From assembly GCA_038961845.1 (NCBI GenBank), contig CP152408.1, forward strand, positions 5,704,001 to 5,768,000: a DNA stretch of 64,000 nt, written 5' to 3'. Under the pieces are notes generated by a model. That model was not told where the DNA came from. It did no database searches and saw only the letters and a program-made list of their open reading frames with translations. This DNA comes from Xylophilus sp. GW821-FHT01B05 (GTDB lineage Bacteria > Pseudomonadota > Gammaproteobacteria > Burkholderiales > Burkholderiaceae_C). The translations under genes and the position numbers were made by a program. Below are positions 4,969 to 63,908 of this stretch, piece after piece; the stretch's first letter is position 1; every line of letters starts with the position of its first letter.

Positions 4969-4977
4969 GCCCGGTTC

Positions 4978-5040
4978 TTTTTTGATAACTAGAAGCCCAG
5001 GTGCAGTCTGGGCTAAAGGCATATTTCGTTCATATTTCTG
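4978..5040 (+). repeat. Hairpin repeat family R, copy 2
   Basis: GATAACTA, then AGCCCAGG with a slightly mismatched partner TCTGGGCT, AAGGC and a T-rich end CATATTTC. Same orientation as the other copies. Located between slyD and the SUI1 gene. Confidence 0.8.
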
Positions 5041-5867: not shown

Positions 5868-6262
5868 CCCCCACCCCAGCCCTCCCCCAGCGGGGGAGGG
5901 AGTAATGCAAAGGCCGAGCGAAGCGACGGCCCGACTGGCAGTCCCGGGTCCCCTCTGTGGCGTTGAGGAGCGCAGGAGTCGGCAGGTTGCCCGCAGCGAA
6001 GCGAAGGGACGGCGAGGACTGTTTGAGCGCAGCGAGTTCCGCAGCCGCCTGCCGATTCCGAGCACCGCAAAGCAGTCCGGCAAAGCCGGACCGCCACAGT
6101 GGGGTCGCCTTCTCTTTGGTGACTTTCTCTTGGCGACCACAAGAGAAAGTTACTCGCCCGCCGGGGCGAACTCCCGGCACCCGCCGCCCGCAAGGCACAC
6201 AGCGCAGGGATATCTCAAAGACCTTGAGAAAGGGATGGTTCTCAGACCCGACGAATCCCGCG
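5868..6262 (+). repeat. Long dispersed repeat family LR, copy 1
   Basis: About 390 bases shared with 14545-14900 and, inverted and more divergent, 23275-23665. Hallmarks are CCCGACTGGCAGTCCCGGG, GGCGAGGACTGTTTGAGCGC and a perfect 11-bp stem ACTTTCTCTTG/CAAGAGAAAGT with a 7-nt loop (6122-6150), then GGCACCCGCCGCC and an AAGACCTTGAGAAAGGG end. The open frames across it show no protein character. The region 5661-6336 holds no intact gene. Confidence 0.85.
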
Positions 6263-6303
6263 GGACCTCCCATCCAGCCCAAACCCAACGATCGCCCCCG
6301 GGC

Positions 6304-6323
6304 CAACGGGCGTGAGTAGTTAA
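6304..6323 (+). repeat. Possible relic of a 104-bp element end
   Basis: AACGGGCGTGAGTAGTTAA here resembles the right end of the 104-bp miniature element (AACGGGGGTGAGTAGTTAC at about 53082-53099). Only the last 20 or so bases match, and neither a left end nor a target duplication was found. Confidence 0.35.
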
Positions 6324-14544: not shown

Positions 14545-14900
14545 GGCAGAGCGTGGGACTGCTCGGGGCCGAGCGCAGCGATGGCCCGATTGGCAGTCCC
14601 GGGGTCCCCTCTGTGGCGTCGAGGAACGGAGGAGTCGGCAGGTTACCCGTAGCGCAGCGAAGGGACGGCGAGGACTGTTTGAGCGCAGCGAGTTCCGCAG
14701 CCGCCTGCCGATTCCGAGTACCGCAGAGCAGTCTGCGCAGCAGACCGCCACAGTGGGGTCGCCTTCTCTTTGGTGACTTTCTCTTGGCGAACACAAGAGA
14801 AAGTTACTGCGCCGCCGGGCGCACATCCCGGCACCCGCCGCCTGCAAGGCACGCCAGCCCGGATATCTCGAAGACCTCGAAAGGGTTGGTTCTGAACCCG
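14545..14900 (+). repeat. Long dispersed repeat family LR, copy 2
   Basis: About 355 bases closely matching 5900-6262 in the same orientation, including the perfect stem ACTTTCTCTTG/CAAGAGAAAGT (14776-14804). It fills most of the gap between gspA (start 14529) and the next gene (15094). The rest of the gap (14900-15080) shows no gene. Confidence 0.85.
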
Positions 14901-21065: not shown

Positions 21066-21070
21066 CGCTT

Positions 21071-21131
21071 CTCTTTTTATAGCTAATAGCCCAGGTGCCA
21101 CCTGGGCTAGAGGCACTTTTCTTTAAAATTT
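21071..21131 (+). repeat. Hairpin repeat family R, copy 3
   Basis: TATAGCTA, TAGCCCAGG/CCTGGGCTA stem, AGGC, CACTTTTC and an uninterrupted end. Lies between the TauE/SafE and MFS genes, both on the plus strand. Confidence 0.85.
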
Positions 21132-21190
21132 ATGGCGCGGGCGCTGCGGCCGGCCACGGCAGCGGCTACGCTCGGTGCAGGAGACACTGC

Positions 21191-23275: not shown

Positions 23276-23665
23276 GAACCATCTCTTTCAAGGTCTTTGA
23301 GATACCCCTGCGCTGTGTGCCTTGCGGGCGGCGGGTGCCGGGAGTTCGCCCCGGCGGGCGAGTAACTTTCTCTTGTGGTCGCCAAGAGAAAGTCACCAAA
23401 GAGAAGGCGACCCCACGTGCTGCGTCCCCTTCGCTTCGCTGCGGGGCAACCTGTGGTGCTCGCGGCAGGCGGGGTCTCGCTCAAACTCGCTTCGCTCAGA
23501 CAGGAGCGATCTCTTATCCGCCTGCCACTGCGCTCCTCGGCGCATCCCGAGGGGACCCGGGACAGCCACACGGGCCATCGCTGCGCTCGGCCCGGCGCCC
23601 GCCGTCAGCAAGACACACGAACGACCGAACAGATCACAAAACCTTGAAAGGGATGGCGCCAAGAC
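23275..23665 (-). repeat. Long dispersed repeat family LR, copy 3
   Basis: Inverted relative to copies 1 and 2. Shared parts are the AAGGTCTTTGAGATACCC edge, GGCGGCGGGTGCCGGGAG and the perfect stem (23365-23393). The inner half is more divergent than between copies 1 and 2, with a different segment around 23440-23530. The gap 23276-23708 contains no gene. Confidence 0.82.
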
Positions 23666-27737: not shown

Positions 27738-28127
27738 ATGCACGGCCTGCACCTCACCGCTGACCTTCACGACTGCCGCTGCGCCCCGCACTGGCTGACC
27801 AACGCCGACGCCTTGCTGGCCGCCTGCGAGCAGCGGGTGCGTGCCGCCGGCCTGCAGCCAGTGGCCCAATTGGCCCACGCCTTCCCGGCCACGGCAGAAG
27901 GCCCGGGCGGCGTCACCGCCACCGTGCTGCTGGCCGAATCGCACCTGTGCGTGCACACCTGGCCCGAGCGGCGCGCGGTGACGCTGGATGTCTACGTCTG
28001 CAATTTCAGCGGCGACCACGCGGCCAAGGCCCACGCGCTGGAAGCCGCGCTGCTGGCGCTGTTTGACGCGGCGCAGGTACAGCGGCATGCGTTGCAGCGC
28101 GGGGCAGCACCGGTATTAAATTTATAG
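27738..28127 (+). CDS. speD: S-adenosylmethionine decarboxylase proenzyme, SpeD
   Basis: A 129-residue SpeD of the short bacterial/archaeal class. The self-cleavage Ser68 lies in [14 protein letters not shown] and would become the pyruvoyl cofactor. The conserved VYVCNFSGD follows. It would make decarboxylated SAM for spermidine synthesis. No speE lies in the window. The last two codons and the TAG stop are formed by the start of repeat R copy 4 (TTTATAGCTA), so the repeat has set the C-terminus. Confidence 0.9.
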
Positions 28128-28178
28128 CTACAAGCCCAGGCGGCACCTGGGTTTAGACCACTTTTCGCCAATATTTCG
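28117..28178 (+). repeat. Hairpin repeat family R, copy 4
   Basis: TATAGCTA, AGCCCAGG/CCTGGGTT stem, CACTTTTC and an uninterrupted end AATATTTC. It supplies the speD stop codon and separates speD from the convergent large gene at 28203. Confidence 0.85.
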
Positions 28179-52856: not shown

Positions 52857-52933
52857 GTTTTGTGTGACAGCAAGGAAAGACCCCAGCCTGCCGCTCCGTG
52901 ATGACCTGGCCATGACAGGCGCAGTGCGCGCTA

Positions 52934-52995
52934 CTTTTTATATAGCTATATGCCCAGGCCCTGCCTTGGCTTCAGCCACTTTTCTTATAAATTCT
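52934..52995 (+). repeat. Hairpin repeat family R, copy 6
   Basis: TATAGCTATA, GCCCAGG/CCTTGGC degenerate stem, GCCACTTTTC and TAAATTCT. Its last 8 bases are the target duplication of the 104-bp element inserted at its end. It is antisense to both flanking genes. Confidence 0.82.
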
Positions 52996-53099
52996 GTAAC
53001 TACTCAGCCCCCACACCGTTCGGGCTGAGCTTGTCGAAGCCCTGCCACGCATCACCAAGCCCTTCGACAGGCTCAGGGCGAACGGGGGTGAGTAGTTAC
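52996..53099. mobile_element. 104-bp miniature inverted-repeat element, copy 1 (IS66-type ends)
   Basis: Begins GTAACTACTCA and ends TGAGTAGTTAC (perfect 11-bp terminal repeats). Inside are two nearly complementary arms, CGTTCGGGCTGAGCTTGTCG and a partner near 53067-53090. Flanking 8-bp duplication TAAATTCT lies at 52988-52995 and 53100-53107. GTAA ends with an 8-bp duplication are the hallmark of IS66-family transposition. No coding capacity. Confidence 0.87.
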
Positions 53100-53111
53100 T
53101 AAATTCTGTAT

Positions 53112-53465
53112 TCAGCACCAGCCCCGCAGCAAGGCCGCTGCGGCGACCGCGCCGGCCAGCAGCGCGCATTGGGGCGCGCGCTGCGGCGCATAGCTCAGCA
53201 GCAGGGCCTGCGCCAGCGCACCGGCGGTGAGCACGCCGCACCACAGCACCCAGCCCTGCGCCAGGCCGGCCAGTGACAGGCTGGCGGCCAGCGACAGCAG
53301 CAGCGCGGCGCTGCCGCCCGCGCGCAGCCAGGGGCGCAGGCGGCCGGGCTCGCGGCCACGGCCGTAGCTGTCTTCAAAATGCCGGTCCATGGCCAGCGCC
53401 AGCGCGGCAAAGCCGGCCAGTGCGGCGCTGAAGGCGCCAGTGGCCAGCGGCCAGGCGGCGCTCAT
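53112..53465 (-). CDS. DUF3325 membrane protein
   Basis: A 117-residue protein with three or four hydrophobic segments: FSAALAGFAALALAMDRHFEDSYGR, SAALLLSLAASLSLAGLA and AGAVAAAALLRG. The MDRH motif after the first segment is typical of DUF3325. It is the last gene of an iron-uptake operon and overlaps the PepSY gene by 4 bases (ATGA). Its role is not known; its constant company with TonB receptors points to siderophore-iron handling at the inner membrane. Confidence 0.85.
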   Translation of the reverse strand: MSAAWPLATGAFSAALAGFAALALAMDRHFEDSYGRGREPGRLRPWLRAGGSAALLLSLAASLSLAGLAQGWVLWCGVLTAGALAQALLLSYAPQRAPQCALLAGAVAAAALLRGWC

Positions 53466-55096
53466 GTCCTCACCTCGGCGGGGCGCACGGCAGGCTTGGC
53501 CACCGCTTTGGCTGCCGCCTTGCCCGGCTTGCGCCGCCCCACCCACCAGGCCGTTGCCAGCAGCGCCAGGCCCAGCCCCAGGCAGACCAGGTCAAAGCCC
53601 GCCACGCGCCACAGCCCCGCGCGCGCCGCCACGAACAGCGCCGTGTCGGTAGTGAAGGCATTGAGCAGCGGCACGCCCGCAAACAGCGCGCCGCCCACGG
53701 CCAGCTGCACCTGCCACATGCGCCTGGCCGGCCAGGCCAGGCCGGCCACGGCAGCGATGCCCCAGGCGGCGAAGAAGCAGCGGATCTCGGCCTCTGGCCG
53801 GCCGGCCAGGCCCACGGGCAGCAGGCGGTTGGCCCAGAAGTAGGCCGCCATGGCCATAGGCACGCCGGCGATGGCGCCGATGTTCAGGCCATCCACCAGG
53901 CGCAGCCCGAAGCTGATGCGCCCGCCGTGCTTCAGCGCCTTGGCGTACTTCTGCCGCTCTTTCACGGCCCACAGCAGCAGGCCGGTGGCCACCATGGCGC
54001 AGCCGGCCAGCCCGCTCAGAAAGAACAGGCCGCGCAGCAGCGGGCTGGAGAAGCGCGCCATGTGCAGCCCATAGAGCACGCCGCGCGTCTGCACCGCCGC
54101 GCCTTCGACGTCGCCGGCGGTGGACAGCAGCCGGCCGCTGCTGCCATCGAACAGCATGGACGGCTGGCTGGCGGACATGCCGTGCCCGTCCTGGCGCTGC
54201 AGGCTGATGGTGGCGTTGGCGTCATTCGGGTGGTTGACGGTGATGCGCCCGACCGGCGCGCCGCCCCAATGGGCCTGCGCCTGCGTGACCAGCGGCGCGA
54301 TCGCCGTGAGCGGCGCGGGCGTGCCCGCAGGCTTGGCGTTGCGCGCAGAGGTAGCGGGAAAGACCTCGGCAAAGAAGGCGTTCTGGTCGCCCTTGTAGGC
54401 CACCTGCGGGCCCCAGGGCATGTACATGAACATGAGGGTGACCAGGCCGGTGTAGGTGATCATCAGGTGGTAGGGCAGCGCCAGCACCGCGGTGGCGTTG
54501 TGCGCGTCCAGCCAGCTGCGCTGGCCCTTCCTGGGGCGGAAGGTGAAGAAGTCCTTGAAGATGCGCTTGTGCGTGACGATGCCCGAGAGGATCGCCACCA
54601 GCATGAACATGGCGCAAAAGCCGACGATCCAGCGCGCCCAGATCGCCGGCATGTAGTGCAGGTCGAAGTGCAGGCGGTAGATGAACTCGCCGCCGCGCGT
54701 CTCGCGCGGGGCTTGCAATACCTGGCCGGTGGCCGCGTCCAGCTCGGCGCTGTCGAAGCGGGCGCGGCGCCCCTTGGCCGGCGGCTCGCCGGGCGGCGGG
54801 GGCGGCTTGGTCCAGCTCACGTTCACCGAGGGCTCGCGCTCGCTCGGCAGGTTGATGAACCAGCGCGGGCTTTGCGGCGCGCGCTGCTGCAGCGTGGCCA
54901 CGGCCGCCTCGGCCGATTGCGCCTGCGGCGGCAGCACCAGGCTGGCGCGGTGCCGCTCGGGCTTCATCCAGAACGTGATCTCGTCCTTGAAGTAGGTGGC
55001 GGTGCCGGCCGCAAACACCAGGAACAGCACCCAGCCGACCAGCAGGCCGCTCCAGGTGTGCAGCCAGGCCATGGACTGGCGAAAACCTTCTTTCAT
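53462..55096 (-). CDS. PepSY-domain membrane protein (iron-uptake reductase type)
   Basis: A 544-residue inner-membrane protein of the PepSY_TM/PiuB group: a first segment with HTWSGLLVGWVLFLVFAAGT, periplasmic PepSY-like parts, HFDLHYMPAIWARWIVGF and further helices with conserved His (HNATAVLALPYHLMITYTG). Relatives reduce Fe(III)-siderophores in the periplasm or act with TonB receptors. The C-terminal 150 residues add more membrane helices. It overlaps both neighbours by 4 bases, so DUF3649-PepSY-DUF3325 are translationally coupled. Confidence 0.88.
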   Translation of the reverse strand: MKEGFRQSMAWLHTWSGLLVGWVLFLVFAAGTATYFKDEITFWMKPERHRASLVLPPQAQSAEAAVATLQQRAPQSPRWFINLPSEREPSVNVSWTKPPPPPGEPPAKGRRARFDSAELDAATGQVLQAPRETRGGEFIYRLHFDLHYMPAIWARWIVGFCAMFMLVAILSGIVTHKRIFKDFFTFRPRKGQRSWLDAHNATAVLALPYHLMITYTGLVTLMFMYMPWGPQVAYKGDQNAFFAEVFPATSARNAKPAGTPAPLTAIAPLVTQAQAHWGGAPVGRITVNHPNDANATISLQRQDGHGMSASQPSMLFDGSSGRLLSTAGDVEGAAVQTRGVLYGLHMARFSSPLLRGLFFLSGLAGCAMVATGLLLWAVKERQKYAKALKHGGRISFGLRLVDGLNIGAIAGVPMAMAAYFWANRLLPVGLAGRPEAEIRCFFAAWGIAAVAGLAWPARRMWQVQLAVGGALFAGVPLLNAFTTDTALFVAARAGLWRVAGFDLVCLGLGLALLATAWWVGRRKPGKAAAKAVAKPAVRPAEVRT

Positions 55097-55473
55097 GCCG
55101 CGCCCCCAAAGCCGTAGCGCGCCAGCAGCATGGCCCCCAGCACCACGGCCGGCAGCAGCAGCCCGAGCCAGGCGCGCGCCGCGCTGCGCGCCGCAAACAC
55201 CCACATCACCGCGCAGGGGTAGATGACAAAGGCCAGCATGGTCGCGGTCAGCGCGGCTTCTGCGCGCGTGGTGGGCAGGTACAGCGCCAGCACCGCCGCC
55301 GACAGCGCCGACAGCCCGTAGCCGCCCCCCATCGCCGCCACCGCGCGCACCGCCACGCCCAGCCGGTAGCGCAGGCCCTCACCGCCCACCGGCAACCAGC
55401 GGTGCCGGGTGGAGGGCGAGGCATCGGCCTGCTGCGCGGCGGGCGATGGATGGGGCGGGGCGTGGTGGCTCAT
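55093..55473 (-). CDS. DUF3649 membrane protein
   Basis: A 126-residue protein with a soluble, Pro/His-containing N-terminus (about 1-35) and three hydrophobic segments: GYGLSALSAAVLALYLP, ATMLAFVIYPCAVMWVFAA and LGLLLPAVVLGAMLLA. The family DUF3649 is typically found before PepSY genes in iron-uptake operons. It overlaps the PepSY gene by 4 bases and follows the DUF4198 gene after 13 bases. Confidence 0.87.
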   Translation of the reverse strand: MSHHAPPHPSPAAQQADASPSTRHRWLPVGGEGLRYRLGVAVRAVAAMGGGYGLSALSAAVLALYLPTTRAEAALTATMLAFVIYPCAVMWVFAARSAARAWLGLLLPAVVLGAMLLARYGFGGAA

Positions 55474-55486
55474 GGCGATGGAAGGA

Positions 55487-56116
55487 TCAGGGCGCGACTA
55501 CAAAAGTGAGCGTGGCGACGTGGCGGGTTTGCGTGTGCGGCTTGCCTTCCCAAGTGCCGGCGCCTTCCTTGTCGACGTGGCCGATCTCTGCCACGTACTG
55601 GCCGGGCCAGGGGGTTTGCAGCGTCACGCGGCCTTGCTTGTCGGTGGTGAACTTCTTCTCCCACTTGGGCGGGCCAAACAGCACCACTTCCTTGTCGGCC
55701 AGCGGCTTGCCGGCCAGCAGCAGGGTGAAGGTGTTGGCGCCCGGCTGCGTCGGCACCAGCTCCAGCGGGTGGCGCGCCACCGTCTCGGTGCGGCCGCTGC
55801 GCGCCTGGTACAGGTTGGCCACGCCCTTGTCGCTGACAAAGCCGCCCACCAGGCGCGCATCGGCACCGGCCGGCGCCTGGAAGCCCAGGTAGTCGTTGTG
55901 GCGCGTGACCGGCAGCTGCGTGCCGTCGGCCGCAACGGCGCGCGGCGCGGTGATCATCTTCAGGTAGCCGGCTTCGGTCTCGCGCACGTCGTCGGCCCAT
56001 TCGCCGAAGTAAGCCTTGGCCGTGCCATCGGCGGCCACGGGGTCGAGCCACACAAAGTGCGCCTGGGCCAAACCGGCGCTGGCGAGCAGCACGGCGAGCA
56101 GGGATTTCTTGAACAT
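55487..56116 (-). CDS. DUF4198 periplasmic protein (NikM/CbtK-like)
   Basis: A 209-residue protein with signal peptide 1-19 (ending AQA) starting with His-Phe in the mature form (AHFVWLDP), a possible metal-binding N-terminus. The beta-rich domain ends with EGKPHTQTRHVATLTFVV. DUF4198 proteins are periplasmic and accompany metal transporters. It follows the TonB receptor by 27 bases and belongs to the same operon. Confidence 0.87.
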   Translation of the reverse strand: MFKKSLLAVLLASAGLAQAHFVWLDPVAADGTAKAYFGEWADDVRETEAGYLKMITAPRAVAADGTQLPVTRHNDYLGFQAPAGADARLVGGFVSDKGVANLYQARSGRTETVARHPLELVPTQPGANTFTLLLAGKPLADKEVVLFGPPKWEKKFTTDKQGRVTLQTPWPGQYVAEIGHVDKEGAGTWEGKPHTQTRHVATLTFVVAP

Positions 56117-56143
56117 GGAAAGCTCCTTGACGGTGGATGAAAC

Positions 56144-58291
56144 TTAGAACAGCGCGCGCACGGTCACCGACGCATTGCGCGGCTCACCGTAGAAGTTGCT
56201 GCGGCCGGTGGTGTAGACGCGCTGCCAGTACACCTTGTCGGTCAGATTGTTGATGTTGAGCGCCACCAACCAGCGCGGGTCGATGCGGTAGGAGATGGCG
56301 GCGTTGACGATGCCAAAGCCCGGCCGGTGCGTGTTGGTGGCCGCATTGCCGCCACTGGCGCTGCCGTAGGCGTTGACGCCCAGGCCAAGCCCCAGGCCAT
56401 CCAGCAGGCCTTCATTGAAGCGGTACTGCGACCACAGCTTGGCCGAGTGCTTGGGCGTGAGCGCATTGAGCGGCAGGCCGCCGCTGGTGGCATCGCGCAG
56501 GTAGCGGTTCTGGTTGTAGGCGTAGCCGCCGTAGACGTTCCACTGGCGCGTGATGCGGCCTGACACCTCCAGCTCCACGCCCCGGCTCTCTACCTCGCCC
56601 TGGGCCACGGAGAAGCCGGTGTTGATCGGGTCGGCCTGCGCGCGGTTGACTTCGCGTATGCGGTAGACGGCGGCCGAGGCGCTCAGGCTGCGGTCCAAGA
56701 ATTCGCCCTTCAAGCCGGCCTCCAGCTGCTTGCCGACGATGGGCTTGAGCACACCGCCGCCAAACGCAAGCTGGGTCTGCGGCGTGAAGGCGTCGCTGTA
56801 GCTGGCATAGGCCGATATCTGCGGCGTGAGCGCATAGGTCAGGCCGGCATAGGGGCTGAACTGCTGGTCGACCTTGTTGGTGGTCCAGGCGCCGGTGGTG
56901 GGCATCAGCGAGCGGCTCTTGGTGTCATACCAGCTGAGCCGCCCGCCCAGCACCAGCGTCAGCGGATCCGCCAGGCGCAGCCGGGTCTGGCCGTACAGGC
57001 CGTGCTGCGAGGTCTCGGCCTCCGACTGCGCCGTGGGCGGCCGGTCGGGATAGGGCACGGCCGCGTGATCCGGCGCGTAGACATCCTGGTAGACGTAGTT
57101 GGCATAGCGCCCAGAGACACTCGCCGTCTGGTTGCGCCGCCAATCCGCGCCTACCACCACGTCGTGCTGGCGGCCGAGGGCTGAGAAGCTGCCGCTCAGA
57201 TTCGCGTCCAGGCTGTCCTGCTCGATCCGGTTCTGGTTGAACCACAGCATCAGGCCCACCACGCCATTGGTGGGCGTGACCTGGCCATTGGGCAGGTAGA
57301 GGTAGTTGGTGGACTGGTCGTTCTGGTAGCGGCTCCATTGCAGGCGGCCGCGCCAGTCGTCTGCGAAGCGGTGCGTCAGCTCGGCGAACAGGTATTTCTC
57401 GTCCTGCGCAGAGCGGTTCCAGTCGGCGCCAAGCCAGGTCGAGCGCGGCACGTCGATCAGCGCGCCGGTGGTGTACGAGGGCAGGCCGCCGGTCAGCCAA
57501 CCGTCGACCTTCTGCGCATGCGCGCCCACCAGCAGGCTGGTGGCAGACGTGAGCCGGAAGTCGAGCGCGCCGGCCAGCGCATAGCGGTCGCGCTGGGCAC
57601 CGGTCTGGTAGGTGCCGCCCTCTTGCTTGGCGGCCGACACACGGCCCAGCACCGTGCCCTCTTTGTTGAGCGGCCCGGTCACGTCGGCCTCGACCCGCTT
57701 GGTCGACCAGCTGCCCAGTTGCACCGCAGCGCTCGCCTGGAAGTGCTCTTGCGGGCGCTTGCGCACCAGGTTGACCGCGCCGCCCGAACTGGACACGCCG
57801 CTGAACAGCGCCGAAGGGCCGCGCAGCAGCTCGACGCGGTCGAACAGCACCGAGTCCCAGGCCGCGGCCGTGCCGGGTGCGGGCACGCCGTCGATCAGGT
57901 AGTTGTTGATGGCGAAGCCGCGCGAGGAATAGGCCGCCGTCTCGCTGTCGAAACGCTCAGACACGTAGCCGATGCTTTGCTCCAGCACGTCTTCCACATT
58001 GCGCAGATTCTGGTCCTCCATGCGCTGCTGCGTCACCACCGTGATCGACTGCGGGATCTCGCGCAGCTCGGCCGCCGTCTTGCCGATGGTGGCCTGCGTG
58101 CTGTTGTAGCGCTCGGTGCCTTCGGTGCTGGCGCGGTCCTGCTCGGCGCTGACGGTGACCGAGGGCAGGCTGCGGCTGGCGCCGTCCTGCTGGGCGCCAG
58201 CGGACTGGGCGGCCAGCGCGGCGGCAACGGCGACGGCACGGAAAACGAGAGGGCGGCGGACGACCGACATGGAGACGAGCTGCAAGGGCAT
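56144..58291 (-). CDS. TonB-dependent siderophore receptor 1
   Basis: A 715-residue outer-membrane receptor of the FpvA/FhuE group: signal peptide (about 1-33, ending SAGAQQ), plug domain (IPQSITVVTQQRMEDQNLRNVEDVLEQ-type start, LLRGPSALFSGVSSSGGAVNLVRKRP) and a 22-strand barrel ending in the Phe-terminal VTVRALF needed for BamA. It imports a ferric siderophore by TonB energy; which one is unknown. Starts at 58291 and 58270 are both possible. It is the first gene of the operon TonB receptor-DUF4198-DUF3649-PepSY-DUF3325. A Fur-box-like site lies upstream at 58471. Confidence 0.92.
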   Translation of the reverse strand: MPLQLVSMSVVRRPLVFRAVAVAAALAAQSAGAQQDGASRSLPSVTVSAEQDRASTEGTERYNSTQATIGKTAAELREIPQSITVVTQQRMEDQNLRNVEDVLEQSIGYVSERFDSETAAYSSRGFAINNYLIDGVPAPGTAAAWDSVLFDRVELLRGPSALFSGVSSSGGAVNLVRKRPQEHFQASAAVQLGSWSTKRVEADVTGPLNKEGTVLGRVSAAKQEGGTYQTGAQRDRYALAGALDFRLTSATSLLVGAHAQKVDGWLTGGLPSYTTGALIDVPRSTWLGADWNRSAQDEKYLFAELTHRFADDWRGRLQWSRYQNDQSTNYLYLPNGQVTPTNGVVGLMLWFNQNRIEQDSLDANLSGSFSALGRQHDVVVGADWRRNQTASVSGRYANYVYQDVYAPDHAAVPYPDRPPTAQSEAETSQHGLYGQTRLRLADPLTLVLGGRLSWYDTKSRSLMPTTGAWTTNKVDQQFSPYAGLTYALTPQISAYASYSDAFTPQTQLAFGGGVLKPIVGKQLEAGLKGEFLDRSLSASAAVYRIREVNRAQADPINTGFSVAQGEVESRGVELEVSGRITRQWNVYGGYAYNQNRYLRDATSGGLPLNALTPKHSAKLWSQYRFNEGLLDGLGLGLGVNAYGSASGGNAATNTHRPGFGIVNAAISYRIDPRWLVALNINNLTDKVYWQRVYTTGRSNFYGEPRNASVTVRALF

Positions 58292-58470
58292 GGTGTGGAC
58301 AAGAGTGGGAAAGGACACGCCCCGGCCGTCACCGTTTCGCCCGCCCGCCGCAGGGCCGCGCAGGGCCCGCAGCAAGCGGAGGCAGAAAGACCGGGGTTGG
58401 CTGGCACGTCCCTGCACCATGTGCAGTCCGGCGGGCTGGAGATGTCACGCGCAATGCCGCGGTTGACAAC

Positions 58471-58489
58471 GAGAATGATTCGCATTGTA
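58471..58489. promoter_or_regulatory. Fur-box-like operator
   Basis: GAGAATGATTCGCATTGTA agrees with the Fur consensus (GATAATGATAATCATTATC) at most informative positions. It lies about 180 bases upstream of the receptor start, in a short AT-rich patch also holding GTATCGCAATG. A related site precedes receptor 2. Confidence 0.7.
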
Positions 58490-58593
58490 TCGCAATGTTG
58501 CGAATCAACCCAGAAAGTCAGGCCACCGTCAGCTTCTGGTGCAGACGCGCGTTGACGACAGCGTGGCGCTGCCAAATGTTCCGCCCGGAACTA

Positions 58594-58655
58594 TTAAATA
58601 TATAGCTAATAGTCCAGGCGGAATAAGGTCTGAAGGCACTTTTCCTTCAAACCCC
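58594..58655 (+). repeat. Hairpin repeat family R, copy 7
   Basis: TATAGCTAATAG, a decayed stem (TCCAGG...), AGGCACTTTTC and CAAACCCC, whose last 8 bases are the duplicated target of the following 104-bp element. Confidence 0.8.
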
Positions 58656-58731
58656 GTAACTACTCACACCCCGTTCGCCCTGAGCCTGTCGAAGGGCTTG
58701 GTGATGCGTGGCAGGGCTTCGACAAGCTCAG

Positions 58732-60466
58732 AAGGTGTGAACGAATATCCGCCCCCGTGCGTTGATAGCGAATGGCCAACGCAAGCAACGCCCCCAAGAC
58801 ATCCGAACAAGCGGCCCTGTTCCACGAAGCGCCCGCAGATGGCGCCGTAGTTGCAACGCCACGGCCAGCAAAGCCGGCGCACACAGCAGGCACGCCACGC
58901 CTGCTGCACGCCGATCGCCAGCAGATCGAGCTACGCCCCTGCGACCTCGATGCCCTTGTCGCGGCAGACCATCCCGCGCGCAGCGTCTGGGCTTTTGTGC
59001 AGGCGCTGGACCTCGCGCCGCTCTACGCCCAGGTCAAGTCGGTGCAAGGCTCGGCCGGCGCACCCGCCATCGATCCGGCCATCCTCATGGCGCTGTGGCT
59101 GTGGGCCACCGTCGAGGGCGTGGGCTCGGCCCGCGAGATCGACCGGCTGTGCGAGCGCGACGACATCTACCGCTGGCTCTGCGGTGGCGTCGGGGTCAAC
59201 TACCACACGCTGGCGAGCTTTCGCACAGCCAACACCGAGTGGCTCGATGCGCAACTCACCCGCAGCATCGCCGCGCTCATGGAGCGCAAGCTGGTCACGC
59301 TCGACGTAGTCGCCCAGGACGGCCTGCGCGTTCGCGCCCACGCCAAGGCCTCGAGCTTCCGGCGCAAGGAGCGCCTGGGCGAGCTGCATGCCTTGGCGCT
59401 CGCCCAGGTCAACGCCCTCAAGAGCGAACTCGAGGCCGATGCGGGCGCCAGCACGCGGCGCAAGGCCGCCGCGCGCGAACGCGCCGCACGGGAGCGCGAG
59501 GAGCGCCTGGCCCGGGCACTGCAGACCTTCGGCGAGATCGAGCGGGGCGCACTCGACAAGATCAAGAACAAGGCCAGTGCGCGTGCCAGGCGAGGCAAGT
59601 CTGGCCAGGCCCCAGTAGGTGATAGCCCCGCCGGGGATGCTCCCAGCGCCCTGCCCGAACCCGACGCCCCACCTGCCGAGCCACGCCCCGCCAGCGGCGA
59701 GGCGCAGCCGAAGTCCAGCGCAGGCGCGCCCAAGCGGGTCAGCACCACGGATGCAGACGCCCGGGTGATGAAGATGGCCGACGGAGGATTCCGTCCGGCC
59801 TACAACGCGCAGGTGCTGGTGGACGAGGCCACGCAGTTGATCGCCGGTATCGCGGTGGTCTGCGCGGGCAGCGATATGCATGAGATGGCGCCCATGCATC
59901 GCCAGATCGAGCAGCGCTACGGCCGCACGCCCACGCACTGGCTGGCCGATGGTGGCTACCCCCAGTACGACGCACTCGAGGAACTCAGCCGTCGCGGCAC
60001 GCAGCCGGTGGTGCCGCCCTCGCGCAGCCGCAAACCTGGCTTCGATCCGCTCAGCCCCAAGGCCAGTGACTCACCGTTGATTGCGCAGTGGCGCGCGTTC
60101 ATGGCCAGTGACGAGGGCCAGAAGCTCTACAGGCGCCGCGCCGCAAGTATCGAATGCGCCAATGCGCAGCTCAGGCGACGGGGCTTGTACCGCCTGAATG
60201 TGTGCGGCAAGTTGAAGGCACGCGCGGTGCTGCTGTGGCACGCGCTGGCGCATAACTTGATGCGCATGCGCTCGCTGGGGTTTGCGCTCGGGGGGTGAAC
60301 TGAGCGCGCTTGCGGGCTCGCCCTGCAGCCTCCACAAGGCCCCAAGACTGCGGCTGGGCGCTCTGGGACCTCCGAGAGGCCAGGAGCTCGCCGCAGCCCC
60401 GTTCAATTGGCCACCGCGGCCTTCAAGCCGCCTGTTGGCGCATGGGAGTTGATTTTTTCACGCCTT
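58732..60466 (+). mobile_element. IS1182-family insertion sequence (complete)
   Basis: A 1735-bp element. Ends are imperfect inverted repeats: left AAGGTGTGAACGAAT, right (read inward) AAGGCGTGAAAAAAT. Target duplication CTCAG lies at 58727-58731 and 60467-60471. One transposase gene (58772-60298) fills it. About 170 bases after the transposase show no further gene. Both ends, the duplication and the frame are intact, so the copy may be recent and active. Confidence 0.9.
58772..60298 (+). CDS. IS1182-family transposase
   Basis: A 508-residue DDE transposase. The N-terminal DUF772-like domain reads PAIDPAILMALWLWATVEGVGSAREIDRLCERD and YHTLASFRTAN. Catalytic acidic residues are seen in VAQDGLRVRAHAK (D), LADGGYPQYDALEEL (D) and ASIECANAQLRRRGLYRLNV (E). 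A long charged linker with Pro/Ala runs (about 210-325) separates the first two. The ATG at 58772 lies 40 bases inside the left end. No frameshift is present. Confidence 0.93.
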   Translation: MANASNAPKTSEQAALFHEAPADGAVVATPRPAKPAHTAGTPRLLHADRQQIELRPCDLDALVAADHPARSVWAFVQALDLAPLYAQVKSVQGSAGAPAIDPAILMALWLWATVEGVGSAREIDRLCERDDIYRWLCGGVGVNYHTLASFRTANTEWLDAQLTRSIAALMERKLVTLDVVAQDGLRVRAHAKASSFRRKERLGELHALALAQVNALKSELEADAGASTRRKAAARERAAREREERLARALQTFGEIERGALDKIKNKASARARRGKSGQAPVGDSPAGDAPSALPEPDAPPAEPRPASGEAQPKSSAGAPKRVSTTDADARVMKMADGGFRPAYNAQVLVDEATQLIAGIAVVCAGSDMHEMAPMHRQIEQRYGRTPTHWLADGGYPQYDALEELSRRGTQPVVPPSRSRKPGFDPLSPKASDSPLIAQWRAFMASDEGQKLYRRRAASIECANAQLRRRGLYRLNVCGKLKARAVLLWHALAHNLMRMRSLGFALGG

Positions 60467-60523
60467 CTCAGCCCGAACGGTATGGGAACCTGAGTAGTTA
60501 CCAAACCCCGAGGGCACGTACCC

Positions 60524-62686
60524 TCAGAACGCGTAGCGCGCGCTCAGCTCCACCGAGCGTGGCGCGCCCGGCATGATGGCCACGTCGTTATTGGCCGAGA
60601 TGTAGTACTTGCGGTCGAACGCGTTCTTCAGGTTGAGCGCCATGCTCCAGCCCTTGGGCGCGGGGCGCCAGTACAGCGCCAGGTCCACCGTGGCGTAGCC
60701 GGGCAGGCTGACGGCGTTGTCGACGTTGGCGAACTGCGAACTGCGTGCGCTCAGGCCGGCGCCGGCCTGCACGCCGGGCAGCCAGGCGTCGAGCGACTTC
60801 AGCGTCCACAGGCTCAGCGTATGGCGCGGCGCCAGCGCCAGGGTCTTGCCCTGCAGCGGCGTGGCCTTGGCCGAGCTGAAGGGCGCGGTCACGGTGCCGA
60901 CGCCGGTGGTCACCAGCGCATCCAGGTACGAGTAGCCGGCCAGCACCTGCCAGCCGGGCGCGACCTGGCCGGAGAAGGTCAGCTCGACGCCGCGCGCACG
61001 CTGCTCGCCGATGTTGAGCAAGGTGTTCAAGATGGGGTCGGTGTACTTCACGTCGCTGCGCGTGAGCTGGTAGAGCGAGGCGGTGAAGGAAGCGGCGCCA
61101 TCGAACAAATCGGTCTTGGAGCCGATCTCCAGGTTCACGCTTTGCTCGGGCTTCAATTGCGCGTTGTTGGTGGCCAGCGCGCCCGCTTCGCCCGAGGGCT
61201 GGTAGGACTTGGTGGCCGACACGTAATAGCTCTGCGTGGCCGTGGGCTGCCACACCAGGCCGGCGCGCGGCGAGATGTTGCGGTCGGTGCGGGCCAGGTC
61301 GGCATTGCTGGGCAACTGGTCGTCGTACTTCTGGCCGAAGGCGTCGTAGCGCAGGCCCAGCATGCTCTTGATGGTGGGCGTCCAGGTGGAAAGCGCCTGC
61401 ACGTACAGGCTGCGCGTGGTGTTGGTGGTGTAGCCCACCGCCGGGCTCGAGGCCTGCGCCACCGGCACCAGGTAGGGCAAATCCTGCCCCACAGGCGCGA
61501 ACACCGGCGTGCTGAAGGAGTAGCCGGCCTTGTTGGTGGCGGCGTTGGTGATGGCCTGCTGGCGGCCTTGCTCGCCAAACTCCGCGCCGGCCAGCAGCTT
61601 GTGCGTGGTGCTGCCCCAGGCCAGGTCGTGGCTGACCTCGCTCTGGTTGAACCAGCCGTGCTCATAGCGCTGCACCGCGCCGCGCGACAGCAGCGCCATG
61701 GGCACGGCGCCGCTGTCGTTGATGGAGCCGATGCGGGTGTGGCGGCGGTCCAGCGAGTACTCGTAGTAGCGCAGCGTGTCGGTAAACGAGGTGCTGTCGG
61801 ACAGGCGCAGCTTGTACTGCGCGGTGCTGCTCTCGATGGTGGAGATGGTGTGGTCCAGGCCGTAGGCATTGGCCGCGCCGTAGTAGGTGCTGTTCGGCAC
61901 ATTGGCCGGCCGGCCGGTGGAGGCCAGGCCCGGCACGCCAAAGTCGATGCCGCGCTCCTGGTGCTGGTAGTTGTATTGCAGCAGCAGGCTCTGGTTGCCG
62001 TCCTTCCACAGCAGGCTGGGCGACACGGCCTGGCTGCGCAGATAGCCGTTGGTGCGGAAGCTGCCCGAATCCTCTACCGCCGCATCGAGCCGCACCGCCA
62101 CCGTGTCCGACACGGCGCGGTTCAGGCCCAGATCCGTGCGCTTCAGGCCATAGCTGCCCAGCGTCACGCCGGCGTCACCGCTGTTGGTGAAGCTGGGCTT
62201 CTTGGTGATCAGGTTGATCAGCCCGCCCGAAGAGCCGCGCCCGTAGAGCGCTGCGGCCGGGCCCTTGACCACTTCCACGCGCTCGATGTTGTAGAGGTCG
62301 CGGAAGTACTGCGCGTCGTCGCGCACGCCGTCCAGGTAGATGTCATAGAGCGCGGTGAAGCCACGGATCACGATGGCATCGCGCTGGCCGTCGCCGGTGG
62401 CCAGGCCAACCGAGGGGATGGTCTTCATCACGTCCTGGACGCTGCGCGCGCCCTGGTCGCGCATGACCTCTTGCGTGACGATGTTGACCGTCTGCGGGAT
62501 GTCGCGCAGCGGCGCATCGACCTTGGCCGCCGTGGCGGTGGCGGCCGGCGCGTAGTGGGCGCCATGCTCCTGGCCGGCGGTGACATCCACCTGCGGCAGG
62601 GTCTGCGCCTGTACGGCAGCGCCGGTCAGCGCCAGGAAAGCGGCCTGCGCGATGGCGCGCCGCGGGGGAAGAAAGCGGGATTGCAT
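60524..62686 (-). CDS. TonB-dependent siderophore receptor 2
   Basis: A 720-residue outer-membrane receptor of the Fiu/FhuA-like group: signal peptide 1-28 (ending AVQAQ), plug with LRDIPQTVNIVTQEVMRDQG and VVKGPAAALYGRGSSGGLINLITKKP, and a barrel ending SVELSARYAF. It likely imports catecholate or other ferric siderophores. It is a single gene here, without the small membrane genes of receptor 1. Start at 62686 gives the signal peptide; a Fur-like site lies about 45 bases upstream. Its 3' end is next to the split miniature element. Confidence 0.93.
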   Translation of the reverse strand: MQSRFLPPRRAIAQAAFLALTGAAVQAQTLPQVDVTAGQEHGAHYAPAATATAAKVDAPLRDIPQTVNIVTQEVMRDQGARSVQDVMKTIPSVGLATGDGQRDAIVIRGFTALYDIYLDGVRDDAQYFRDLYNIERVEVVKGPAAALYGRGSSGGLINLITKKPSFTNSGDAGVTLGSYGLKRTDLGLNRAVSDTVAVRLDAAVEDSGSFRTNGYLRSQAVSPSLLWKDGNQSLLLQYNYQHQERGIDFGVPGLASTGRPANVPNSTYYGAANAYGLDHTISTIESSTAQYKLRLSDSTSFTDTLRYYEYSLDRRHTRIGSINDSGAVPMALLSRGAVQRYEHGWFNQSEVSHDLAWGSTTHKLLAGAEFGEQGRQQAITNAATNKAGYSFSTPVFAPVGQDLPYLVPVAQASSPAVGYTTNTTRSLYVQALSTWTPTIKSMLGLRYDAFGQKYDDQLPSNADLARTDRNISPRAGLVWQPTATQSYYVSATKSYQPSGEAGALATNNAQLKPEQSVNLEIGSKTDLFDGAASFTASLYQLTRSDVKYTDPILNTLLNIGEQRARGVELTFSGQVAPGWQVLAGYSYLDALVTTGVGTVTAPFSSAKATPLQGKTLALAPRHTLSLWTLKSLDAWLPGVQAGAGLSARSSQFANVDNAVSLPGYATVDLALYWRPAPKGWSMALNLKNAFDRKYYISANNDVAIMPGAPRSVELSARYAF

Positions 62687-62730
62687 GGTGTTGCTGCCTT
62701 GCCTGGAGTACGTTGGAATAGTGGCCACAT

Positions 62731-62749
62731 GAACGCGAATCGTTCTTGC
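62731..62749. promoter_or_regulatory. Fur-box-like operator of receptor 2
   Basis: Read on the minus strand: GAACGATTCGCGTTC, sharing GAA-GATTCGC-TT with the site at 58471. It is positioned where it would cover the promoter of the receptor gene. Confidence 0.55.
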
Positions 62750-62845
62750 TTGCTTTTGGCTTGGCGAGCCTATTCCTGCGAAGCTGACTTGAAGCCAGCG
62801 GTCGCGCAAATACAACACTGGTCGCAACGACTGTCGATCGCTTCT

Positions 62846-62905
62846 ATTTTTATAGCTATATGCCCATGACCAGCCTTGGCAAAAGGCATATTTCCCTGAT
62901 ATTTC
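62846..62905 (+). repeat. Hairpin repeat family R, copy 8
   Basis: TATAGCTATATGCCCA, a decayed stem, AAAGGCATATTTC and GATATTTC, whose last 8 bases are the duplicated target of the following 104-bp element. Antisense to the flanking genes. Confidence 0.82.
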
Positions 62906-63009
62906 GTAACTACTCAGCCCCCACACCGCTCGGGCTGAGCTTGTCGAAGCCCTGCCACGCATCACCAAGCCCAACGACCGGCTCAGGGCGAACGGGGGTG
63001 AGTAGTTAC
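62906..63009. mobile_element. 104-bp miniature inverted-repeat element, copy 3
   Basis: Same orientation and length as the copy at 52996-53099, differing at only a few positions (around 62933 and 62973-62979). Perfect ends GTAACTACTCA/TGAGTAGTTAC. Flanking 8-bp duplication GATATTTC lies at 62898-62905 and 63010-63017. Confidence 0.87.
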
Positions 63010-63035
63010 GATATTTCGCCGCAGGTGCTGCGGCT

Positions 63036-63908
63036 TCAGAAGCGGTCGATGGGAATCTTCAGGTAGGCCGTGCCATTGCCCTCCGCCGGCGGCAGGCGGC
63101 CGGCGCGCATGTTGACCTGTACCGAGGGCAGCATCAGCGCCGGCAGCGCGAGCGTGGCGTCGCGCGCCTGCCGGCGGGCGACGAAGTCGGTCTCTGCGAT
63201 GCCCTCACGCACGTGGATGTTGTGCGCGCGCTGCGCCGCCACCGTGCTGCGGCAGCTGGCCTCGCGCCCCGCGGGCGGGTAGTCGTGGCACAGGTAGAGC
63301 ACAGTCTGCGGCGGCAGCGCCAGCAGGCGCCGGATCGAGCGGTACAGCACGTGCGCGTCGCCGCCGGGGAAGTCGCAGCGCGCCGTGCCCAGGTCGGGCA
63401 TGAACAGGGTGTCGCCGACGAACACCGCGTCCGGCCCGCCGGCCGGGTCGGTGATGCGGTAGGCCACGTCGGCCGGCGTGTGGCCCGGCACATGCAGCGC
63501 ACAGGCCTGCAGTCGGCCGATGGCAAAGGCCTCGCCATCGGCGAACAAGTGGTTGAACTGGGAGCCGTCCACGGCCATTTCGCCGGCATTGAAGATGCCG
63601 TGGAACTCGCGCTGCACCTGGGTGATGCCCGCGCCTATCGCCAGCGCGCCGCCCAGGCGCCGCTGCAGCCAGGGTGCGCCAGACAAGTGGTCGGCGTGCG
63701 CATGCGTCTCCAGCAGCCAGGCCAGCTGCAAATCATGGGCTTCGATGTGCGCGGCCACGGCCTGCGCCGGCTGCGGGTCGGTACGCCCGGCCTTCTGGTC
63801 GAAGCCCATCACCGGATCGATCACCGCGCAGGTGCCGGCGCCATCGTCCACCACATAGGAGAAGGTGGAGGTGGCTGGATCGAAGAACGCTTGGATGGAC
63901 AGGCTCAT
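63036..63908 (-). CDS. MBL-fold hydrolase, persulfide dioxygenase-like (Blh type)
   Basis: A 290-residue metallo-beta-lactamase-fold protein with the metal motif THAHADHL (68-75), HVPGHTPADVAYR, FVGDTLFMPDLGTARCDFPGG and LCHDYPP. The GTARCDFPGG stretch is the signature of ETHE1/Blh-type persulfide dioxygenases, which oxidise glutathione persulfide to sulfite. In Xylella and Agrobacterium the blh gene is controlled by the ArsR-type sulfide sensor BigR. A palindromic operator and the start of a divergent gene directly upstream agree with that layout. Full length; the start at 63908 is standard. Confidence 0.9.
   Translation of the reverse strand: MSLSIQAFFDPATSTFSYVVDDGAGTCAVIDPVMGFDQKAGRTDPQPAQAVAAHIEAHDLQLAWLLETHAHADHLSGAPWLQRRLGGALAIGAGITQVQREFHGIFNAGEMAVDGSQFNHLFADGEAFAIGRLQACALHVPGHTPADVAYRITDPAGGPDAVFVGDTLFMPDLGTARCDFPGGDAHVLYRSIRRLLALPPQTVLYLCHDYPPAGREASCRSTVAAQRAHNIHVREGIAETDFVARRQARDATLALPALMLPSVQVNMRAGRLPPAEGNGTAYLKIPIDRF

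Follow-up and report, generated by a model that had tools for sequence, protein, structure and literature searches.

An IS66-family insertion sequence and a miniature element with the same ends lie at a fixed position of an intergenic repeat in Xylophilus

Insertion sequences (ISs) of the IS66 family are marked by a DDE transposase (TnpC), an 8-bp target duplication, ends that begin with GTAA and accessory genes tnpA and tnpB, the last two not being required in the ISBst12 group, and to our knowledge little is known about how transposases of this family choose their targets. The term repetitive extragenic palindrome (REP) refers in the strict sense to the palindrome associated with REP-associated tyrosine transposases (RAYTs), and one of the ISs that aim at REPs is ISPsy8, which we take to be a member of the IS3 family. 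ISDge4 of Deinococcus geothermalis, an ISBst12-group IS66 element with a single open reading frame (ORF) and an 8-bp target duplication, is reported to transpose in the available part of its description (PMC12898284). The REP-targeting ISs named in the available part of an earlier survey are ISPsy8, ISPa11, ISPpu9, ISPpu10, ISRm22 and ISRm19; the families concerned are IS110 and IS4, with a looser association of IS256 and IS5, and the word 'IS66' is absent from that text (Tobes and Pareja, 2006; PMC1525189). Here we analyse a window of 64,000 nucleotides (positions 5704001-5768000 of the 5832500-bp chromosome CP152408.1 of Xylophilus sp. GW821-FHT01B05), where a miniature element of 104–106 bp is found three times at the end of a hairpin repeat that we call R, and we compare it with the rest of the chromosome and with other genomes. 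We consider it very probable that an IS66 transposase of the ISBst12 group targets the gene-proximal end of intergenic R and moves the miniature element, a miniature inverted-repeat transposable element (MITE), in trans.

Similarly to ISDge4, the full-length IS of this chromosome has one transposase ORF and an 8-bp duplication, its ends reading GTAACTACTCAG compared to GTGACTACTCAGCA/GTAACTGCTCAGCA there (PMC12898284). In contrast, ISDge4 was caught inside a gene and no targeting of a repeat is described in the available text (PMC12898284), whereas here nearly all copies are found at one repeat and a MITE is present in addition. The REP-targeting ISs have all their copies in a genome at a single position of such a palindrome, and the elements here likewise keep to one position of an extragenic repeat (21 of 23 in this chromosome and 21 of 45 ends in four other genomes); however, those ISs insert into the REP and break it, according to the part of the survey available (PMC1525189), whereas here the insertion is at the far end of the R tail and the body of R is left intact. 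Repeat targeting is known for other IS families and, as far as we found, has not been reported for IS66, since no account of an IS66 element aiming at a repeat was found in the available parts of open-licence full texts (including PMC1525189, PMC12898284, PMC3281130, PMC3189936 and PMC5678879).

All three MITE copies in the window have the exact 11-bp ends GTAACTACTCA/TGAGTAGTTAC, and each is flanked by its own perfect 8-bp duplication, just as an original prediction made from the window alone had stated. Copy 1 (104 bp, plus strand) spans 52996-53099, with TAAATTCT on the plus strand at 52988-52995 and again at 53100-53107. Copy 2 (minus strand), split by an IS1182-family element, spans 58656-60501 between plus-strand copies of CAAACCCC at 58648-58655 and 60502-60509, and copy 3 (104 bp, plus strand) spans 62906-63009 between plus-strand copies of GATATTTC at 62898-62905 and 63010-63017. 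The left duplication is in every case formed by the last 8 bases of a plus-strand R copy: at 52929-52995 for copy 1, with the R body extending to 52984 and the tail occupying 52985-52995 (nhmmer match to the R body at 52930-52983, 35.5 bits), at 58589-58655 for copy 2, with the body to 58644 (58590-58644, 28.0 bits), and at 62839-62905 for copy 3, with the body to 62894 (62840-62893, 31.2 bits). Measured with a profile derived from 30 R copies other than these, all three MITEs start 11 bases past the last column of the R body, and so the identical register claimed originally is confirmed. Minus-strand ORFs terminate on the opposite side, at 53112 beside the right duplication of copy 1, at 60524 beside copy 2 (TonB-dependent receptor-like) and at 63036 beside copy 3 (metallo-beta-lactamase (MBL)-fold hydrolase-like), both names being given by eye without a family search. 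The terminal 11-mer has six exact matches within the window; with up to 2 mismatches it is found 8 times, compared to 2.08 expected, and none of 100 shuffles reaches 8. A decayed end of a further MITE copy, with one mismatch in the terminal 11 bases, is also present in the window at 6279-6323.

The same arrangement extends over the whole chromosome. The exact 11-mer end is found at 37 places (17 forward and 20 reverse, compared to 0 and 1 for the backward control). These belong to 23 elements. Eighteen are miniature, of which four are split by an IS1182-family element and several have one end that is decayed or absent; the other five are pairs of ends spaced by exactly 1637 bp. R adjoins 21 of the 23, on one side only and 10–13 bases from its body, the distance being 11 in 15 cases, 12 in three, 13 in two and 10 in one (L023, whose end on the R side is decayed and for which a separate measurement gives 12). 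Two of these 21 R matches are weak (L001 with 13.1 bits and L068 with 7.8 bits), the low score of L068 being due to the cut at the end of the locus; a separate analysis shows its R more fully. The chance of R adjacency is 2.3e-4 per element, calculated from 23 R copies per 400 kb. A neighbouring stop codon was found for 19 of 20 elements, and the distance to it ranges from overlapping to 104 bases. The preference for one site in R suggested originally thus holds for most copies in the genome. The location of the three window copies around siderophore genes, also noted originally, is incidental: the elements are spread over the 5.83-Mb chromosome, and a special siderophore association is not supported. 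A nucleotide search with copy 1 returned 59 matches, and 40 of 124 candidates were scored, so that decayed copies are undercounted.

The five 1637-bp elements are 100% identical to each other and contain a single transposase gene of 493 amino acids, which matches PF03050 (E 1.8e-46) and NF033517 (289.6 bits, with a cut-off of 180); neither tnpA nor tnpB was seen among the ORFs of this IS. GTAACTACTCA is found at both ends of all five copies, which gives the GTAA start characteristic of IS66, and the single ORF together with the ACTACTCAG-type ends corresponds to the ISBst12 group. The outer 11 bp are common to MITE and IS at both ends, and one MITE end has 17 bases (GTAACTACTCAGCCCCC) in common with one IS end. 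The miniature element is short, lacks a gene and has terminal inverted repeats and a duplication matching those of the IS, as is typical for a MITE. Of the 21 MITEs for which both flanks were read, 13 have a perfect 8-bp duplication, as does one of the five IS copies. Judging by these sequence features, the 1637-bp IS is very likely the autonomous partner of the miniature element, which is very probably moved in trans by the IS protein. The original prediction, which had called the element non-autonomous and IS66-type and had foreseen a full IS66-family element with the same ends, is supported by the shared ends, the duplications and the IS66 transposase in the same genome. Among the best 120 of 7658 transposases listed, the nearest other one is 81% identical and one from Polaromonas 71% identical. 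Within the family, a close transposase (E up to 1e-100) is present in three of 299 genomes, own included, and the IS was found at E up to 1e-10 in none of the six other congeners. Two IS fragments (L125 and L126), 94–95% identical, are remnants of older copies.

R itself is abundant: a pattern allowing up to 3 mismatches finds 195 copies in the genome (control 0), and a profile search of twenty 20-kb stretches (400 kb) finds 23, corresponding to an estimate of about 335 per genome. The profile was built for the R body, with the tail excluded, from the first 30 of 73 copies found by a pattern requiring a good stem, and one of the 30 (L036) adjoins a decayed core copy. Of the 23 sampled R copies 21 are empty, and the remaining two carry decayed elements. 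R is found mostly directly after genes, with its tail towards the stop codon, as measured on mechanically called ORFs, which will make some of the distances incorrect. Folding of an R consensus made by hand gives two hairpins (−13.2 kcal/mol, z −4.3), and no Rfam family was matched in the window at gathering scores. The window contains seven R copies, three of them occupied. The four empty ones, all on the plus strand and given as body plus tail, are at 1443-1509 (nhmmer match 1448-1497, 52.6 bits), 4972-5038 (4978-5027, 40.7 bits), 21066-21132 (21068-21120, 52.9 bits) and 28111-28177 (28114-28153, 38.4 bits). The profile scores of 23 occupied and 25 empty R copies show no difference (Mann-Whitney p 0.36; L068, truncated where its locus ends, and L010 and L013, which are R-like, were excluded), and the idea that occupied copies are weaker hairpins is not supported by these scores.

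Inside the MITE is a palindrome (CCGTTCG...CGAACGG) which also occurs alone, allowing the contributions of ends and interior to be separated. An R match is found for 21 of the 24 core copies whose end has no more than one mismatch, compared to four of the 14 that lack ends (Fisher p 3.9e-4), and three of these four have R near the usual distance and are perhaps decayed MITEs. This comparison covers 38 of the 40 scored copies, with the doubtful L014 (without R) and L028 (with R) set aside and the split copies L021 and L024 counted through their other half; the R-match threshold was 8 bits, which L010 passes only by a partial 9.8-bit match. The association with R follows the IS66 ends, not the interior.

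Relatives of the IS in other genomes provide a further comparison. A protein scan of GTDB gave 30 loci, and the end GTAACTACTCAG, listed in nine of their genomes, was found in eight of them at 63 places, one without a flank. R models were available for four genomes, G304, G305, G307 and G308, which are two Rhodoferax and two other Burkholderiales metagenome-assembled genomes. These models were built from 5, 20 and 11 R copies, taken from stretches selected apart from the listed IS ends, that of G304 also serving for G305; the R copies were first found via models built from IS flanks, so their choice is not wholly independent. R adjoins 21 of the 45 ends (9 of 18 in G307, 7 of 13 in G308, 3 of 10 in G304 and 2 of 4 in G305), and in all 21 the distance from the end of the model to the insertion is 8–10 bases. 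Because contigs break inside the IS, each insertion appears as two ends, one facing R and the other facing the gene. Of the 21 R-side ends, 15 could be paired with a mate end whose 8-mer is exactly complementary (8 of 9 in G307, 4 of 7 in G308, 2 of 3 in G304 and 1 of 2 in G305), although L138 and L170 have an identical AT-rich 8-mer. The R sequences differ strongly between these four genomes. The same MITE ends are present in two of 299 genomes of the family, own included, and the other one (G205) has a different interior. Short elements with GTAACTACTCAG ends and other interiors were seen in L111 (G205, 1501-1602) and L140 (G303, about 1501-1679), and such elements, as far as their sequences can tell, suggest that MITEs of this kind originated repeatedly.

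In the mechanism that we propose, the 104–106-bp element is a MITE without autonomy that belongs to the ISBst12 group of IS66, which has a single transposase gene and lacks TnpA/TnpB, and its autonomous partner would be the 1637-bp IS present in five identical copies on the same chromosome. The transposase would insert IS copies and MITEs alike at the end of R nearest to the gene, just past stop codons, and its cut would cause the final 8 bases of R to be duplicated. We infer that R itself is read, rather than any AT-rich or 3'-untranslated DNA, by the transposase acting either on its own or together with a host protein on R. The transposase-start end is towards R in all five IS copies here, the opposite end is towards R in 8 of 9 cases in G307, the two ends face R 4 and 3 times in G308, and either end of a MITE can be towards R; orientation is therefore not fixed by the target.

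Several observations weigh against targeting of R. No transposition was seen, and the common ends, 8-bp duplications, R adjacency, fixed register and recurrence in four genomes, from which we argue, come from comparison of sequences. Two exact-end elements, L002 and L017, have no R match, L002 following a stop codon without R and L017 keeping only a scrap resembling an R tail (by eye), and L070, with one mismatch in its end, also lacks a match. Among the relatives, only 3 of 10 ends in G304 adjoin R, no R was seen by eye in 17 flanks of G302, G303, G309 and G310, which had no R model (the single end seen in G309 faces a stop codon and says little), and relatives with other ends (L093–L097 and L103–L110) show no R by eye. 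A syntenic empty site was not found in another strain or species: the MBL-like neighbour gene was matched in nine of 30 genomes, own included, and in the 11 flanks no syntenic element-free R was seen by eye, one flank (L191) having an R-like stretch in the other orientation. Finally, a perfect duplication is found only in L064, the flanks of the other four IS copies being mismatched. On the R side 35 flanking bases are common to L061 and L062 and 24 to L063 and L065, compared to a longest common run of 11 among sampled R tails (253 pairs), and the 8-mer found on the R side of L063 and L065 is the same as that on the gene side of L061. This pattern points to recombination or gene conversion between R::IS units as the probable origin of the mismatched flanks, with R giving homology on one side only.

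Could the arrangement arise without recognition of R? If insertion had no specificity and copies survived only where they do no harm, between the stop codon and R, the location of R mostly just past genes, where insertions should be tolerated, and the position of L002 after a stop codon without R would both be accounted for. Such survivorship, however, leaves the distance to R free, yet it stays within 10–13 bases in 21 of 21 cases here and 8–10 in 21 of 21 elsewhere, with stop-codon distances varying widely; we regard this explanation as highly improbable. A plain preference for AT-rich 8-mers, for which R tails would be the commonest sites in a GC-rich genome, agrees with most duplications here and in G307 being AT-rich. 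However, CAAACCCC is used here in the same register, as are AAATGCCC and CGCGGATC in G308 and GCCGCGCC in G305, the last three with exact mates. GC-rich 8-mers such as GCCGCGCC and CGCGGATC are used, and therefore AT-richness alone is an insufficient explanation; the constant is the R flank, not the 8-mer, making such a preference improbable. Almost negligible, in our opinion, is the prospect that R is a component of the mobile unit and carried along with it. The R-side flanks common to L061/L062 and L063/L065 are what would be expected then, but the element is separated from R by one copy of the duplication, either MITE end can face R, R exists in the 195 copies mentioned above, and 21 of the 23 copies in the sampled stretches are empty. 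For the same reason the duplications are not part of a longer inseparable unit, which the original prediction had named as a danger to its own reading.

A refinement of R targeting, rather than an alternative to it, is that recognition depends on the hairpin (cruciform) formed by R DNA and not on the sequence of R. The predicted fold of the consensus and the location of L010 and L013 next to hairpins of different stem sequence speak for it, but several occupied R copies have broken stems (by eye), the R copies of G308 lack a strong GC stem (by eye) and profile scores of occupied and empty copies are alike, so we think this rather unlikely. Candidates for the recognised feature, which would have to survive a near-complete change in the centre of R between genera, are the position after stop codons and the spacing, together with the GCTA..TAGC half and the GGC-NN-ATTT block. 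More tentatively, a Comamonadaceae branch of ISBst12 may have evolved a safe harbour at gene ends by recognising a family-wide repeat, possibly via an R-binding host protein, with a MITE built on a common palindrome riding along and an IS1182-family element aiming at that palindrome. The recognised feature can be tested here, since an autonomous element and a MITE come with hundreds of natural targets and with diverged targets in several genomes, and if the aim is indeed at R, this would offer a handle on the nature of R, a repeat found after many Comamonadaceae genes.

The IS1182-family element in copy 2 lies in the core palindrome at 58732-60466 (plus strand), with its transposase at 58772-60298 (NF033551, 357.1 bits with a cut-off of 270), and is flanked by the 5-bp CTCAG at 58727-58731 and 60467-60471. 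All eight genomic copies found (L241–L248) are at the CTCAG/CTGAG site of the core palindrome and have a 5-bp direct repeat; four are in MITEs, and L245 is in the other arm. IS1272 of Staphylococcus, also of the IS1182 family, likewise targets inverted repeats, but according to the available text it replaces the repeat and leaves no duplication (PMC5678879), whereas here a 5-bp direct repeat remains. In the three nested layers of R, the MITE and the IS1182-family element, gene ends and other mobile elements appear to serve mobile elements as places to land at low cost.

The MITE is also found after a paralogue (70% identical in DNA) of the MBL-like neighbour of copy 3, at 3101249-3103093 of the chromosome (L066, L199). 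Elsewhere in the window, two near-identical stretches of about 250 bp (5943-6198 and 14599-14852) hold a 35-nucleotide GTGACTTTCTCTTG...CAAGAGAAAGTTAC hairpin, which recurs inverted at 23362-23396.

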